Virus record (IMG/VR): IMGVR_UViG_3300031364_000007
Location: 1 to 40,554 of that record
DNA length: 40,554 nt
Strand: one strand, 5' to 3'
Source: a virus
Shown: in pieces, positions 2,688 to 37,551 of the stretch
Layout of the letters: every line of letters starts with the position of its first letter
Numbering within the stretch: the stretch's first letter is position 1
The notes under the pieces: model-generated
The model's input: the letters and a program-made list of their open reading frames with translations, nothing else
What the model was told of the DNA's origin: nothing
Databases searched by the model: none
Program-made: the position numbers and the translations under genes

Positions 2688-3179
2688 TTAAAATTCAATC
2701 GGTTTAAGATCTTTTTTCAAATATAGCGTATGACCAGGTTGCCCTAATTTTGTTTTAGTCAGGCAATAGACCTTTCGTTCTGCTTTGATCATATCAACAA
2801 CCTGTATTCCTCTATCCATAAATAAACCATCATTTCCCCATGCAAATAACACAAGGTCGCACAATGAAACCGCCGCCGTTATCCAAAAATCATTTTCTGG
2901 CCCAATTGGGTCAATTGCTTTCTTCATAACCTTTGGCTCTTTGGTCCTGAATGCGAATAGATTAGCCTTATAGAGCCCACCATATCCCCATGAATCGGCA
3001 TAGTTTATTTCCTTTCTCATTGTTTGATCATCATTTTCGGCATCTGCAGTTGATGGATTTAAGCCGATGAAACAAACAAACGGTTTTTCTCTATCCCATA
3101 TTCTAGTTAAACAATATCGATAGAGGCCATCCTTTGAAATGTAAGCTGATTTGTCCATTTTTTTATTCTTGAGGCCCAA
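2688..3179 (-). CDS. DUF1643 family protein
   Basis: 163 aa. Shows the family's hallmarks in order: CLTRIWDREKPFVCFIGLNPSTAD, then DDQTMRK, YADSWGYGGLYKANLFAFR, and ILFAWGN-type segment (LVLFAWGNDG). DUF1643 proteins are widespread in phages and restriction-rich bacterial loci; biochemical role not established. The gene overlaps the end of the DUF7694-like gene by 17 bases. Confidence 0.85.
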   Translation of the reverse strand: MGLKNKKMDKSAYISKDGLYRYCLTRIWDREKPFVCFIGLNPSTADAENDDQTMRKEINYADSWGYGGLYKANLFAFRTKEPKVMKKAIDPIGPENDFWITAAVSLCDLVLFAWGNDGLFMDRGIQVVDMIKAERKVYCLTKTKLGQPGHTLYLKKDLKPIEF

Positions 3180-3540
3180 CCATTACCGCCGGCGGTAATG
3201 GAATGGGTTGATTTTTAGGTTTCCAGAGATGCAAGGTGAATGGATGATAGTCAACATAATCTTCGAGTTTGGGATGAATCTGAATCACAGCCTCATCATT
3301 AGACCAGAAAGCACTTTTAACATAACACATTTCCTGCCAGGTCGGACAACGTTTGATGTCCTTTGTCAGTTTGCGATCCTTGATACTGATCGAAACATGT
3401 TCCCATCCTTCACCGTCTCCACAAACACAGAAAAGCATCACCCCAAAATGTGGAAGCAAAAACAAACCATTATTTCCATTTTTTTCTGTTGTGCCAAGCA
3501 CGCCTTTCCTATATCTGAATTGTTCTGGAGCTTTAAACAT
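3163..3540 (-). CDS. DUF7694-like phage protein
   Basis: 125 aa. Recognised from the sequence RCPTWQEMCYVKSAFW followed by AVIQIHPKLEDYV and HPFTLHLWKP, the conserved core of a small phage family (I believe DUF7694). No known activity. The many Trp/His/Phe residues suggest a compact beta-rich fold. It follows the DnaJ-type zinc-finger gene by 2 bases in the early operon. Confidence 0.65.
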   Translation of the reverse strand: MFKAPEQFRYRKGVLGTTEKNGNNGLFLLPHFGVMLFCVCGDGEGWEHVSISIKDRKLTKDIKRCPTWQEMCYVKSAFWSNDEAVIQIHPKLEDYVDYHPFTLHLWKPKNQPIPLPPAVMVGPQE

Positions 3541-26102: not shown

Positions 26103-28238
26103 TTAAGGAGTTGGCTGGTTACCCGTATTCTCAACTGTTTGATTTGCGGACAGTTGGTTACCGCTTGTTACAGATTGGTTTATTTTTGCCGCCATGTCAA
26201 TTGCTGCCTGAGCATCTTCTCTGTCAATATTTGCCAAGGTCTCGGTTACATCAGCCAAGATCTTTTCTATTTCAGCAATCTTTTTCTTAGTATCAGCGGC
26301 AGAATTGATAGATTTCGCTCTTTCATTTTCAGCGGCTGCTTTGAGATATTCCTCATTTGCATCCGGTTTCAAATTCTGGGCTTCTTTGGTCAGTCTTTTC
26401 TGTTCTTCTTCGGATGGTTGAACAACGCCCAGTTTGATAAGTTTCCAGCGGTAATACTCTCTAATTTCTTGCATTCCTTCACCATCCAGATTCATCATGA
26501 TCATAGCGGTTAGAATGATCGCTGTTTCTTGGTTCTGTCCTGCCGGTGTCATTTGCAATACTTCGGTTAATTCTCTTACAATTTTAGCTTTTCTACTGGA
26601 GAAGGAAGGACCAACATCAACCATGATTTCGAAGTTTGCATCTCTAAAATCGTTTTTATAGATAGTTTTACCAGTTTCTTCATCCTTAATAGGCTTCATC
26701 AGTTCAATGTAATCGACCGATTTTTCTTTTCCAAGTGCCATCATTTTACGGCCCTTGTCCCGGTAAATATCTTTTGCCATTGAAAGCCAGATCTGACCGC
26801 CTCTTCTCATCGCCTTCGCAAAATTAGACATATAAATAAAAGATTGCATGTCAAGCCGATTCATAACACGCTCGATCGCTTCTCCTGATATGTTTGAGAC
26901 GAGCTTATCCCCTTCTTTCTGATTGATGAGAATATCCTGCATGTCCTTTTCTGTAATATCAAGCAGGGCTGCAAGAGCTGGAGGAATGGAAGGAACTTTT
27001 GTATATCCAAGAGGTCCGGCGGGAGCTTCATCGCCATCTTTATTGGTGATTGATTCAATGAACAAATATGGGTAGTTTGTTATATTGTCAGCAGCCCACA
27101 TGTTACCATGTTTCCCCATTTGTTCCGGTGTAAAGATTGGTTTTTCGACTGAACTTAGAGCTGAAATCTCAAATAATTTGGAATATTCTGAGTTTTTAAT
27201 GCGCTGGATATCTTTTGCCAATCTGATATGGCCCATCACTCTCTCGATCCCATCAACAATCCAGCGCTTTCCATACATTGGGACAATCGGTATTTCGGTG
27301 CCGGCGATGATTCCACAATCTTCGATAATTTTATCACCACCCATCAAGTATTTATGGATCTGCTTTCGCTTCCTTTTTTTCTTAATTGTGAAGGTGAACT
27401 GCGACAGGGCAAGTTGTTCTGGAATGGAAGGATTATCATCCAGTTCTTTTTGTGTGTAATAATCTTTTTCACCATCCGAGGATACATAAACAAGAACTTC
27501 TTCGGTGACGATTTCTACCTTGTAGTATTCGGCGATGTATACTTTATCCGGAGTACACCAATCGAATTTAGATTGATTAACTTCCTTTGGCCAAGCGGCA
27601 GGATCAAAATCAAGATCGAAATTGTCCTTGTAATAATCATGAGTATAGGCAATCAATACCCAGCATTCCCTTGCATCTGATTTGTCCTGCCGCATAGCAT
27701 CGGCGTTGAAAAAAACACACGAATCCGCATCATAAATAGGCTCAATGTAAATGCTTTGATATTCGTTATCGATATCAAATTCATCTTCTAAATCTGCTCT
27801 ATATCTCCACGTTCCCATCCCGCCACCAACCGCTTCCTCAAATGAGTTGTCGTATGCTTCCGAAGCCTGGCTTTTCTGTTCATCAGCACGGTATAATCTG
27901 TCACAAGTATCGGCCAACTCTGAGCGATCAACCCCATCTCTGGAAATGTAATCGACTGTGATTCGGTTAGCTCTATATTCGTTGAAAATCCTGATTACTG
28001 AAGAGTGTACTTTGTTAACTTCGAGTTGCGGCTTGTTTTTGAAGAGTTCCCCCACTTTTCCTTCCCATTGAGCACCGGGAATGGAATAAAATCGTCTATC
28101 TTCGAGACATTGTTCCCGCTCTTCCTGTGACTGAGAAACAGATAGGTTGAAGGATCTTAACGCCTTTTCATGTATTTCAAGCAGATCTTGGGAATCCGAA
28201 CTGCTTTCTTCCTCTTCCTGTTCGTATTCTTCGGCCAT
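26103..28238 (-). CDS. Portal protein, P22 gp1-like
   Basis: 711 aa (P22 portal 725). Begins with an acidic tail, then SVSQSQEEREQCLEDRRFY, PGAQWEG, RITVDYISRDGV, FEEAVGGGMGTWRYRADLED and DADSCVFFNADAMRQDKSDARECW, all typical of P22-type portals. The C-terminal 150 residues are a helical barrel-type coiled coil (AAENERAKSINSAADTKKK). It forms the twelve-subunit ring through which DNA enters and leaves. Confidence 0.92.
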   Translation of the reverse strand: MAEEYEQEEEESSSDSQDLLEIHEKALRSFNLSVSQSQEEREQCLEDRRFYSIPGAQWEGKVGELFKNKPQLEVNKVHSSVIRIFNEYRANRITVDYISRDGVDRSELADTCDRLYRADEQKSQASEAYDNSFEEAVGGGMGTWRYRADLEDEFDIDNEYQSIYIEPIYDADSCVFFNADAMRQDKSDARECWVLIAYTHDYYKDNFDLDFDPAAWPKEVNQSKFDWCTPDKVYIAEYYKVEIVTEEVLVYVSSDGEKDYYTQKELDDNPSIPEQLALSQFTFTIKKKRKRKQIHKYLMGGDKIIEDCGIIAGTEIPIVPMYGKRWIVDGIERVMGHIRLAKDIQRIKNSEYSKLFEISALSSVEKPIFTPEQMGKHGNMWAADNITNYPYLFIESITNKDGDEAPAGPLGYTKVPSIPPALAALLDITEKDMQDILINQKEGDKLVSNISGEAIERVMNRLDMQSFIYMSNFAKAMRRGGQIWLSMAKDIYRDKGRKMMALGKEKSVDYIELMKPIKDEETGKTIYKNDFRDANFEIMVDVGPSFSSRKAKIVRELTEVLQMTPAGQNQETAIILTAMIMMNLDGEGMQEIREYYRWKLIKLGVVQPSEEEQKRLTKEAQNLKPDANEEYLKAAAENERAKSINSAADTKKKIAEIEKILADVTETLANIDREDAQAAIDMAAKINQSVTSGNQLSANQTVENTGNQPTP

Positions 28239-28243
28239 TGTTT

Positions 28244-29527
28244 TCAGCTACGATAAGGGGTGTGTGTTGGGATCGGTTCTTCAGTTGGTCGTTGTCTTTC
28301 CCTTGCTTTTTGTACCCGCCTGTGTCCTTCATGGGAATATCTCAATGGGTCAATAATGTGATTGTTTTTGTCCTCAATGATCGGCAAGATCTCTGGTTCA
28401 TTTGTTACAGGATCAATGGTATTTTCGTCAACTTTGTACTTATAGTGGGTTAGTTCATCAATGGTATGTTTGCACCTTGGATGGACTATTATTTCATAAC
28501 TCTTAAGCCATTCTATTCCCTCTGCAATCGATGGTTTCTTAACTCCGTAGGTCTTTGGGAAGCCATGATTTTGCATGTAATTGATAGTATCCGGCCTGGC
28601 AGAATCAGCAATGATCGGCCACTTGTCAGAACCGGGAACTTGCCGCCAGAGATCTGGAAGATTTGGTATTTCGCAACCTACCTGGTATGCTTCATAATCG
28701 ATAAAAAGCTTTCTTCCGATAATGTGTGATCTCACAAGTGTAGCCGGATGAACAAATCCAAAGTCGGCCCCAAGTCTGTGCACTGCATCTGCAGGAGCTT
28801 CGAATTCCTCTTCTCTCCAATTTTTGAATACAGCTGCTTTGGAATGCCTTAAATATTTCCCCTTCCAGATATGTAGATACTTGTCCTGATCGCGCTGCCT
28901 ATCGTATGCGATCTCAATTCGTGCATTGTCATCAAGAAAAGGATTATCCTCGAAATTTGACTCAGCAATCACAGTTCCGGGTGGCGGTTCATGTCCTTCT
29001 ATCTTTCTTCCAAACTTGTCATTGCCACGAAAGAAAAAATCAACCGGATCGGTAGGAAGATAGGGATTCCAGGAAAACCAAAGCTCAGCGCCTTTCTTGC
29101 GGATGATTGTTGGTCGAATCAGGTCAAGCGATTTCTGGGAGAAACGGTTTGCTTCTTCCCCCCAAAAAATATCGAAGCCCTCAAACGATTTGATAGAATC
29201 TGCCGTATGATCCCGGATACCTTCAAAGATAATGATTCCACCGGATGGGGCATCGATCCGTTTGTCCTTGATACTGAAATAATCCTCGAGGTGGTATTTT
29301 CTGATTTTGTATTCAAGTAAGCGCTTTGCGGAATGGACGAGGGATTTTTGGTATTCTCTACCGCATATGCTGTCAGTCCTGGCCAACATATGCCTTTTGA
29401 TCATGAGATCAGCAAAAGTATGGGACTTGGCTGAACTTCGGCCACCGAAAGCGGCCCTATATCTTGCCGGCGCAGTTACAAGTTTCTGAAAAACCCTGGG
29501 AACTTGGATGTTTAACTCTCTGCCCAT
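28244..29527 (-). CDS. terL: Terminase large subunit
   Basis: 427 aa. ATPase P-loop variant FGGRSSAKSHT (residues 27-37), Walker B FDIFWGEEANRF, coupling region ELWFSWNPYLPTDPVD, and RNase-H-like nuclease acidic residues in GADFGFVHPATL, IADSARPDTI and NNHIIDPLRY. Packages DNA into the prohead and cuts the concatemer; partner is the small subunit at 31409-31906, here unusually separated from it by six small genes. Confidence 0.95.
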   Translation of the reverse strand: MGRELNIQVPRVFQKLVTAPARYRAAFGGRSSAKSHTFADLMIKRHMLARTDSICGREYQKSLVHSAKRLLEYKIRKYHLEDYFSIKDKRIDAPSGGIIIFEGIRDHTADSIKSFEGFDIFWGEEANRFSQKSLDLIRPTIIRKKGAELWFSWNPYLPTDPVDFFFRGNDKFGRKIEGHEPPPGTVIAESNFEDNPFLDDNARIEIAYDRQRDQDKYLHIWKGKYLRHSKAAVFKNWREEEFEAPADAVHRLGADFGFVHPATLVRSHIIGRKLFIDYEAYQVGCEIPNLPDLWRQVPGSDKWPIIADSARPDTINYMQNHGFPKTYGVKKPSIAEGIEWLKSYEIIVHPRCKHTIDELTHYKYKVDENTIDPVTNEPEILPIIEDKNNHIIDPLRYSHEGHRRVQKARERQRPTEEPIPTHTPYRS

Positions 29528-30724: not shown

Positions 30725-31038
30725 CTTCGCTTAAACCTCAAATTAGAGTAAGTCTTAAGCTTCATGAAACAACGGCGATAGAATATTTTTCTGACTGCGG
30801 ACGATAGTTTAACGGAAAACCGATACAAATCTGATAACAAAAGAATAATTGCAACTGAAGGGTCTGGAAATTCTATTTCGAAAGCTGGTGTTTCATCAAA
30901 GTCGGGAATTCTTGTAATGATAGATTCTCGTTCTTCATATACCACAAAGCCGACGTTCACGGTATCATCTGTTGTATTAACAGGAATCGTGCCACTAGAA
31001 CCAGCTGCAAGATAAGCTGCACAGGGATTTGTTTTCAT
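30721..31038 (-). CDS. Hypothetical protein with hydrophobic segment, 105 aa
   Basis: N-terminal KTNPCAAYLAAGSSGTIPVN and a beta-rich first half; a hydrophobic stretch at about 64-72 (AIILLLSDLY) and a strongly basic end (YRRCFMKLKTYSNLRFKRR). Not recognised. Overlaps both neighbours by 4 bases, implying coupled translation. Confidence 0.5.
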   Translation of the reverse strand: MKTNPCAAYLAAGSSGTIPVNTTDDTVNVGFVVYEERESIITRIPDFDETPAFEIEFPDPSVAIILLLSDLYRFSVKLSSAVRKIFYRRCFMKLKTYSNLRFKRR

Positions 31039-31274
31039 TTTTTACTTCCTGACCGTTTCTTTTTTGGGACTGTTTTGGGAGCTCTGGCAATCCGCTGGAT
31101 GCTTTTAACTTCCTGCTTTTTCTCTTTCAAAACTCTCGTTCCGGCTTTCTTTGCAGCTGCCATCCGTTTCCGATCTGCTTTGATTTCTTCTGCACGGGTG
31201 AGAGTTCTGAGATCGTCTTCAGCCATCCAGTCACGTTCTTGTTTAGTCACATTAGGACTAATTGATTTTGCCAT
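31035..31274 (-). CDS. Basic hypothetical protein, 79 aa
   Basis: Helical and Lys/Arg/Ala-rich (LRTLTRAEEIKADRKRMAAA, then KKAGTRVLKEKKQEVKSI) ending KKKRSGSKK; nucleic-acid binding or an assembly helper are possible. First gene after the parS-like palindrome at 31289-31304, which lies 15 bases upstream of its start codon. Confidence 0.5.
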   Translation of the reverse strand: MAKSISPNVTKQERDWMAEDDLRTLTRAEEIKADRKRMAAAKKAGTRVLKEKKQEVKSIQRIARAPKTVPKKKRSGSKK

Positions 31275-31288
31275 TTTATTCCTTTCAA

Positions 31289-31304
31289 TGTTTCACGTGA
31301 AACA
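31289..31304. promoter_or_regulatory. parS: Perfect parS-type palindrome (ParB binding site)
   Basis: TGTTTCACGTGAAACA, a full 16-bp palindrome identical to the consensus parS site bound by chromosomal ParB (for example in Bacillus subtilis). It lies in the 134-base gap between the small terminase gene and the 79-aa gene. A leftward TATAAT (31310-31305) abuts it, so it could equally be an operator over a transcription start. No ParB-like gene is visible in the window. Confidence 0.7.
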
Positions 31305-31408: not shown

Positions 31409-31906
31409 CTATTCAGTTTCCTCTTTCTCTCTTTTCTTTTTCGGATCCACGATAACGGTTTTGATTATTTCAACAGGTCCACCCTCTGGGCTTGAGTGAG
31501 TGTTATCAATTCGATCTTTCCAAGCGGACCTTTGTTTCATCGTTCTGTTTTTCAAAAAAAAGATTGCAGCTGCAGTATCGGGCGGATAATGTTTAATGAT
31601 CTTTGTTTTTGTTATTTTCCCTTTATAATTAGTAATATGCAGATCATCATGTTCATAGCCATTCGCCCGTTTATACAGACTGACAGCGGTTTCAGCATTT
31701 GCTATTGTCTTTCCACGATTTAAGGACTCCGAAAAACTTGGATGATTCAGTTTCCATAAATTGATTGTCGATTCAGCAACTTCAAAGAATTCAGCTATTT
31801 CCGTATCAATCAATCCAAGCATTGCCAATTTGTAAACAACCTCGTCATATTCTGGTTTATATTTTGTCGGTCGTCCGTTAGAACTGTTATTTTCCTGGTC
31901 TGGCAC
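31409..31906 (-). CDS. terS: Terminase small subunit
   Basis: 165 aa, GTG start with AAAGAGG seven bases upstream. Residues 10-75 hold the DNA-binding HTH: RPTKYKPEYDEVVYKLAMLG, LIDTEIAEFFEVAESTINLW; then SFSESLNRGKTIANAETAVS and the core ending PPDTAAAIFFLKNRTMKQRS with AWKDRID, all diagnostic of this family. Recognises the packaging site and feeds DNA to TerL. First gene of the leftward late block. Confidence 0.92.
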   Translation of the reverse strand: MPDQENNSSNGRPTKYKPEYDEVVYKLAMLGLIDTEIAEFFEVAESTINLWKLNHPSFSESLNRGKTIANAETAVSLYKRANGYEHDDLHITNYKGKITKTKIIKHYPPDTAAAIFFLKNRTMKQRSAWKDRIDNTHSSPEGGPVEIIKTVIVDPKKKREKEETE

Positions 31907-32299
31907 TTCAAACCTCTTTTTTTCGGATTAGTTATCTGTTGATCATACATTAAACCCATTTGACACAGAAAATCAAGTTTCCCCTGTTTTTGATGGTGCA
32001 GATTAAAAATCGATCACACGTGGTTGAAATCGTCCACGGTCATGATTGATTTTCGTCCATTTTAGAGCATTGATCAGCCAGAATCGATTAAAATCGTGCA
32101 TGCAATAATCGATAATCAATCAAATCGATTATCGTGGTTGAAATTGGGTGATTTTTTCAACTGTCAAGAATTCGTTGACTGTTCGCGGAACAGCGTAAAT
32201 AGAGGGTTTAGTTTTTTATGATTATTCTTTTGGCACTTGGCACAGAAAAAGCAATAGTAAAGATAACTTAATTATTAATAACTCAAACAGGAGATTGAA
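31907..32299. promoter_or_regulatory. Divergent intergenic control region with ATCGAT repeats
   Basis: 393 bases without a gene between terS (leftward) and the small-gene cluster (rightward). Contains four ATCGAT copies (32009, 32083, 32108, 32124), a 9-bp inverted repeat ATAATCGAT-N10-ATCGATTAT (32105-32132), and a 12-base direct repeat CGTGGTTGAAAT at 32019-32030 and 32133-32144. A leftward -10-like TATGAT lies at 31947-31942, 36 bases before the terS start. Could be the late promoter/operator region, an origin, or the packaging site. Rightward signals are listed separately. Confidence 0.55.
32175..32201 (+). promoter_or_regulatory. Candidate rightward promoter with operator palindrome in its spacer
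   Basis: TTGACT (32175-32180) and TAAATA (32196-32201), 15 bases apart, enclose the inverted repeat CTGTTC-GCG-GAACAG (32179-32193). A protein on the palindrome would block polymerase directly. The -10 and spacer are not ideal. Drives, by position, the small-gene cluster starting at 32300. Confidence 0.4.
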
Positions 32300-37209: not shown

Positions 37210-37551
37210 TCAAATTTGATTTATAACTTTAACGATGGCCGATATTAATGCTGTTTCACGCTCTGTATGCTTAAAATCCTGACCGCGTTCGCAAAGCTCT
37301 TCTGTAAAAACATAACTTAAATCGTTATAAGAAACTCTTTTCGCTCTTCCTTTTTTTATTAACTCATTCATTGGAATTTTGAGACGTTTAGAAATATTTT
37401 CAAGCGTCTGCTTTTTTTTAGGAAAATATGTACCATCCAGGTACCGGCAGACAGTTTGTTTTGTTGTATTCAAATAAGCAGCTAAATCTGCCGGAGAGAT
37501 TTCCATTTTTGTCATTTGGGCCAACATCAAATCAGAGTTCAATTGTGTCAT
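37210..37551 (-). CDS. XRE-type helix-turn-helix regulator, 113 aa
   Basis: HTH at residues 16-45: EISPADLAAYLNTTKQTVCR YLDGTYFPKKK-type, followed by ISKRLKIPMNELIKKGRAKR. The C-terminal 50 residues are helical and probably the oligomer part. A second regulator beside that at 704; it might act on the early or rightward promoters. No own promoter is apparent; 23 bases after the resolvase stop. Confidence 0.75.
   Translation of the reverse strand: MTQLNSDLMLAQMTKMEISPADLAAYLNTTKQTVCRYLDGTYFPKKKQTLENISKRLKIPMNELIKKGRAKRVSYNDLSYVFTEELCERGQDFKHTERETALISAIVKVINQI

Follow-up and report, generated by a model that had tools for sequence, protein, structure and literature searches.

Results

The window analysed here is the whole of IMG/VR virus record IMGVR_UViG_3300031364_000007, 40,554 bases in length with a GC content of 39%. 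A TerL terminase large subunit (minus strand, 28244–29527; PF04466 and PF17288), a TerS terminase small subunit (minus strand, 31409–31906; PHROG 309, E 6e-47), a P22-like portal protein (minus strand, 26103–28238), a scaffold, and a major head protein show that it derives from a phage of the P22-like type. Other genes encode a RecT-like annealing protein, an SbcC-like ATPase, an exonuclease, a Holliday-junction resolvase, a Dam-type methyltransferase and a second methyltransferase, and an HTH repressor-like protein (37210–37551); no tyrosine integrase was found in the record. An AT-rich non-coding gap at 31907–32280, between the leftward terS and the rightward early genes, contains ATCGAT/AATCGATTATC and CGTGGTTGAAAT repeats and a short inverted repeat, and is a candidate origin or control region. 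Elsewhere, a 22-bp perfect loopless palindrome, CCATTACCGCCGGCGGTAATGG (3180–3201), lies just upstream of a DUF1643 ORF (2688–3179), within the upstream ORF, and is longer than the palindrome considered below.

Positions 31289–31304 are occupied by a perfect 16-bp palindrome, TGTTTCACGTGAAACA, which matches the chromosomal-type parS consensus, TGTTNCACGTGAAACA, exactly. It occurs once in the 40,554-nt window, which holds no further match to it with up to three mismatches, and the number of exact matches expected in the window by chance, from base composition or a first-order Markov model, is 1.5e-5. On the minus strand, terS (31906–31409) is followed by a TATAAT box (31310–31305) that directly abuts parS (31304–31289), a Shine–Dalgarno-like AAAGGA, and the ATG (31274) of a 79-aa lysine-rich ORF (31035–31274), which carries parS in its 5′ leader, 14 bp from the start codon. 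Further small ORFs come next, and then terL and the portal gene. The palindrome thus lies in a non-coding gap between packaging genes, with the terS stop codon ~105 bp upstream in the direction of transcription and the terL start 1.76 kb downstream. The original prediction of a perfect parS, very unlikely to match by chance, placed between packaging genes and abutting a TATAAT, is borne out on each of these points. For the 79-aa ORF, a profile search returned no family match and IMG/VR no relative. A transcript driven from the TATAAT box would be predicted to start inside parS. A GC-skew extremum at parS was considered and set aside, as the local turn tracks gene orientation and is uninformative.

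The site appears to stand alone. Profile searches of the window, whose record may be incomplete, found neither ParB_N (PF02195) nor HTH_ParB (PF17762), and no ParB candidate emerged among the window proteins; a ParA-type ATPase, AAA_31 (PF13614), is likewise absent from the record. The phage had been described as one that shows no ParB, and these searches agree. With neither parB nor parA on what may be an incomplete record, the locus is not a self-contained ParABS cassette.

No DNA-level relative of the phage was present in the phage collection and no relatives of its portal were found in IMG/VR. By TerL, the nearest relatives are environmental phages, Xanthomonas phage PBR31, IMG/VR contigs, and proteobacterial prophages. 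The original prediction had been made to depend on the palindrome recurring in close relatives; it is absent from the relatives compared (54 TerL loci, 6 GenBank phages, and 80 genome loci), but all of these are distant, at about 50–57% TerL identity or less, so that at close range the comparison speaks neither for nor against conservation within the lineage. Across 1.33 Mb of flanking DNA, integrated prophages of the same terminase family likewise had no parS; it may be that a parS distant from oriC is harmful to the host chromosome. Two relatives of the window phage that lack parS, MW202867.1 (15285–15536) and MW202613.1 (19442–19627), have a ParB_N domain inside an ORF annotated as an adenine-specific methyltransferase, which adjoins the terminase genes; fusions of a ParB fold with a methyltransferase are known in phages (PMC12704722). 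The related terminases are found mainly in proteobacterial genomes. Of 48 host genomes in which prophages with related terminases occur, 21 contain exact parS, often clustered within a few kilobases, as chromosomal centromeres should be.

A survey of viral contigs placed this single site in a broader context. Exact parS, TGTTTCACGTGAAACA, was present in at least 120 IMG/VR contigs, and the known parS variant TGTTCCACGTGGAACA also in at least 120, while 34 matches and 1 match in IMG/VR were obtained with two control palindromes that share the base composition of parS, the second of which is a two-base change at positions 6 and 11. The least biased test in the analysis is a core-agnostic scan with AATGTTTNNCGNNAAACATT, in which the flanks and centre are fixed and 256 cores are possible: among the matches listed, 102 of 129 sites, and 40 of 55 clusters grouped by DNA similarity, have the CACGTG core, and most of the remaining sites are one base off the parS core. 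The phages with canonical parS fall into 69 sequence clusters among the matches listed. Partner proteins are rare in this set. ParB_N was detected in 4 of the 120 canonical-parS contigs and HTH_ParB in none of the 42 long ones, again among the matches listed; the contigs are mostly fragments, which makes the absence of ParB weak evidence for any single contig but does not weaken the overall tally. Integrase was found in 8/42 parS contigs and 5/31 comparison records among the matches listed, indicating no difference in lifestyle. The 20 records of cultured phages contained no exact parS, only sites with one mismatch. One of these, in Roseobacter phage CRP-810, lies inside a CDS, and another, in Pelagibacter phage HTVC027P, is intergenic: CGTTTCACGTGAAACA (MN698241.1, 16412–16427; locus L336) sits in the terS–terL gap of a genome without ParB_N.

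The bases just outside the 16-mer raise the question of which protein reads these sites. In the phage sites among the matches listed, with clusters weighted, T is preferred at the two bases outside the 16-mer (0.52 and 0.48, against a local background of 0.26), and this preference is missing from 24 chromosomal sites, drawn from sampled genomes that are mostly GC-rich. This difference might mean that the ParBs of the relevant hosts differ, or that another protein reads an extended site. In the latter case a DNA-binding protein other than ParB, from phage or host, would recognise a 20-bp extended palindrome, AATGTTTCACGTGAAACATT, that contains parS by happenstance, and the HTH repressor-like protein of the window could be such a reader. 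However, enrichment of the known variant TGTTCCACGTGGAACA and the single match to the 6/11 change amount to a parS-like pattern of tolerance, and no shared phage protein is expected among phages as unrelated as the 69 clusters. We therefore regard a reader other than ParB as very improbable.

Placement of the sites was also nonrandom. Among the matches listed, 67 of 146 canonical sites were called intergenic with a simple ORF caller, against a background of 9.4%, as were 51 of 126 variant sites, against 10.4%; phage parS is thus intergenic at ~4 times background among these matches, and the intergenic canonical sites span 30 of the 69 clusters. None of the 34 matches to the first control palindrome was intergenic. 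For 56 of the 120 loci among the matches listed, the DNA retrieved around the site encodes TerL, so that at least these 56 are phages and not stray chromosome. Adjacency to the terminase genes was examined as a sign of a link to packaging and rejected: among the matches listed, 32 of the 56 canonical loci that bear TerL have parS in the 2 kb upstream of terL, against 26.9 expected at random intergenic positions, and the variant set gave 13 observed against 13.4 expected, indicating that closeness to terL is mostly explained by the uneven placement of gaps. In loci L097, L284, L321, and L322, TGTTCCACGTGGAACA and TGTTTCACGTGAAACA occur in tandem, 24 bp apart, and the gene for a phrog_38 terminase large subunit lies ~40–60 bp downstream of them.

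Intergenic placement could instead reflect use of parS as an operator, with host ParB, or its spreading, silencing the TATAAT promoter and so timing expression of the operon of small genes and terminase, and with no role in partition. This proposal, which formed part of the original prediction, fits the locus, where the TATAAT box abuts the site and the start codon is close by, and genes adjoining parS are repressed in Pseudomonas aeruginosa, according to a review of ParB (PMC7022226). As a general account it fares less well: among the matches listed, only 6 of the 146 canonical sites and 9 of the 126 variant ones have a -10-like box within 20 bp, and parS is found about equally between convergent and divergent genes (9 versus 10 among the matches listed). 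In the window itself, scanning for promoters paired the TATAAT box with no acceptable -35 element at 16–18 nt. An operator with no other role is thus unlikely.

Some loci contain more than one site. Among the matches listed, 17 of 120 loci have 2–5 exact copies, mostly with unrelated flanks. Loci L017, L044, and L053 of IMG/VR have 3–5 exact copies within ~1 kb, either next to terminase genes or upstream of them, and no ParB domain was found in these loci; they are better experimental models than the single-site window. Such arrays would suit a decoy, in which many parS copies on replicating phage genomes titrate ParB or SMC off the chromosome and disturb host segregation. The up to five exact copies in ~1 kb (L017 and L044) favour this idea, any site would be multiplied by phage copy number, and parS copies on the mobile element SGI1 destabilise its helper plasmid (PMC10954446). 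However, the window and most loci have a single site, and titration leaves unexplained why sites are intergenic and near gene starts. We consider a decoy function distinctly unlikely.

Taken together, the enrichment, the preference for the CACGTG core, the intergenic bias, the multiple copies, and the rarity of ParB establish that lone parS is a real, recurrent, and selected feature of unrelated phage contigs.

Discussion

The present study suggests that the palindrome at 31289–31304 probably functions as a parS centromere, which this ParB-less phage carries and the chromosomal ParB of its host reads. The simplest interpretation is that host ParB binds the site, because TGTTTCACGTGAAACA, the variant TGTTCCACGTGGAACA, and the intolerance of change at positions 6 and 11 all follow parS in phages that share no other DNA. 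The original prediction that host ParB may be recruited to the phage DNA is upheld as regards a genuine chromosomal-type site, the recurrence of selected, lone parS sites in phages, and, in general terms, a link with the host, but ParB binding in the window, and its effect there, are what we infer from these patterns. According to this model, CTP-bound dimers of host ParB would load at the phage parS and slide into the adjoining phage DNA, which would thereby be marked as ori-like and would link the phage genome to the ParA/SMC machinery of the host. Circular phage DNA could in this way be positioned and partitioned between infection and packaging. Bound ParB may also hold down the promoter of the packaging operon; it would be expected to repress this promoter because the parS copy overlaps the predicted transcript start. 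The downstream effect would most likely be partition or tethering, followed by promoter control at this locus, and then by titration of ParB.

The nearest precedent that we found for phage use of chromosomal ParB is SGI1, whose parS-like sites hijack the ParABS system of IncC plasmids (Muranyi et al. 2024, PMC10954446). For SGI1 it has been demonstrated that ParB binds, that stabilisation results, and that the helper is destabilised (PMC10954446), which shows, by analogy, that the borrowing of a parS can work biologically. In both cases a mobile element without ParB bears the parS of another replicon; the window, too, pairs a foreign parS with the lack of a ParB of its own. However, SGI1 is an integrative mobilizable element that exploits a plasmid ParB, whereas the present case concerns a phage and a chromosomal-type parS, with ParB binding predicted. 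Chromosomal ParABS systems of the Spo0J family use the identical 16-bp site, but the phage lacks parA and parB, and the phage sites have T,T-biased flanks, unlike the sampled chromosomal sites. Phages with partition systems of their own, such as P1, mycobacteriophage RedRock, and the cluster A phages, also have a centromere site on phage DNA, but they carry parABS and encode their own ParA and ParB (PMC7157519); moreover, the parS of RedRock consists of 8-bp direct repeats and not of the chromosomal palindrome. In the open-access literature we found no description of phages with a lone parS of the chromosomal type. The main new point is the wide occurrence of such sites in phages.

We hold it to be an evenly balanced proposition that many unrelated ParB-less tailed phages carry the host centromere site as a selected element, and that a widespread and overlooked layer of phage–host interaction thus consists in their hijacking chromosomal ParB, whether for positioning or partition, for SMC loading, or for silencing. 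If host ParB does load on phage DNA, these phages would be tied directly to the segregation of the bacterial chromosome. This would bear on where infecting DNA is located in the cell, how phage genomes are inherited in carrier or pseudolysogenic states, and how late genes are timed, and it would provide many natural parS contexts for studies of ParB and CTP.
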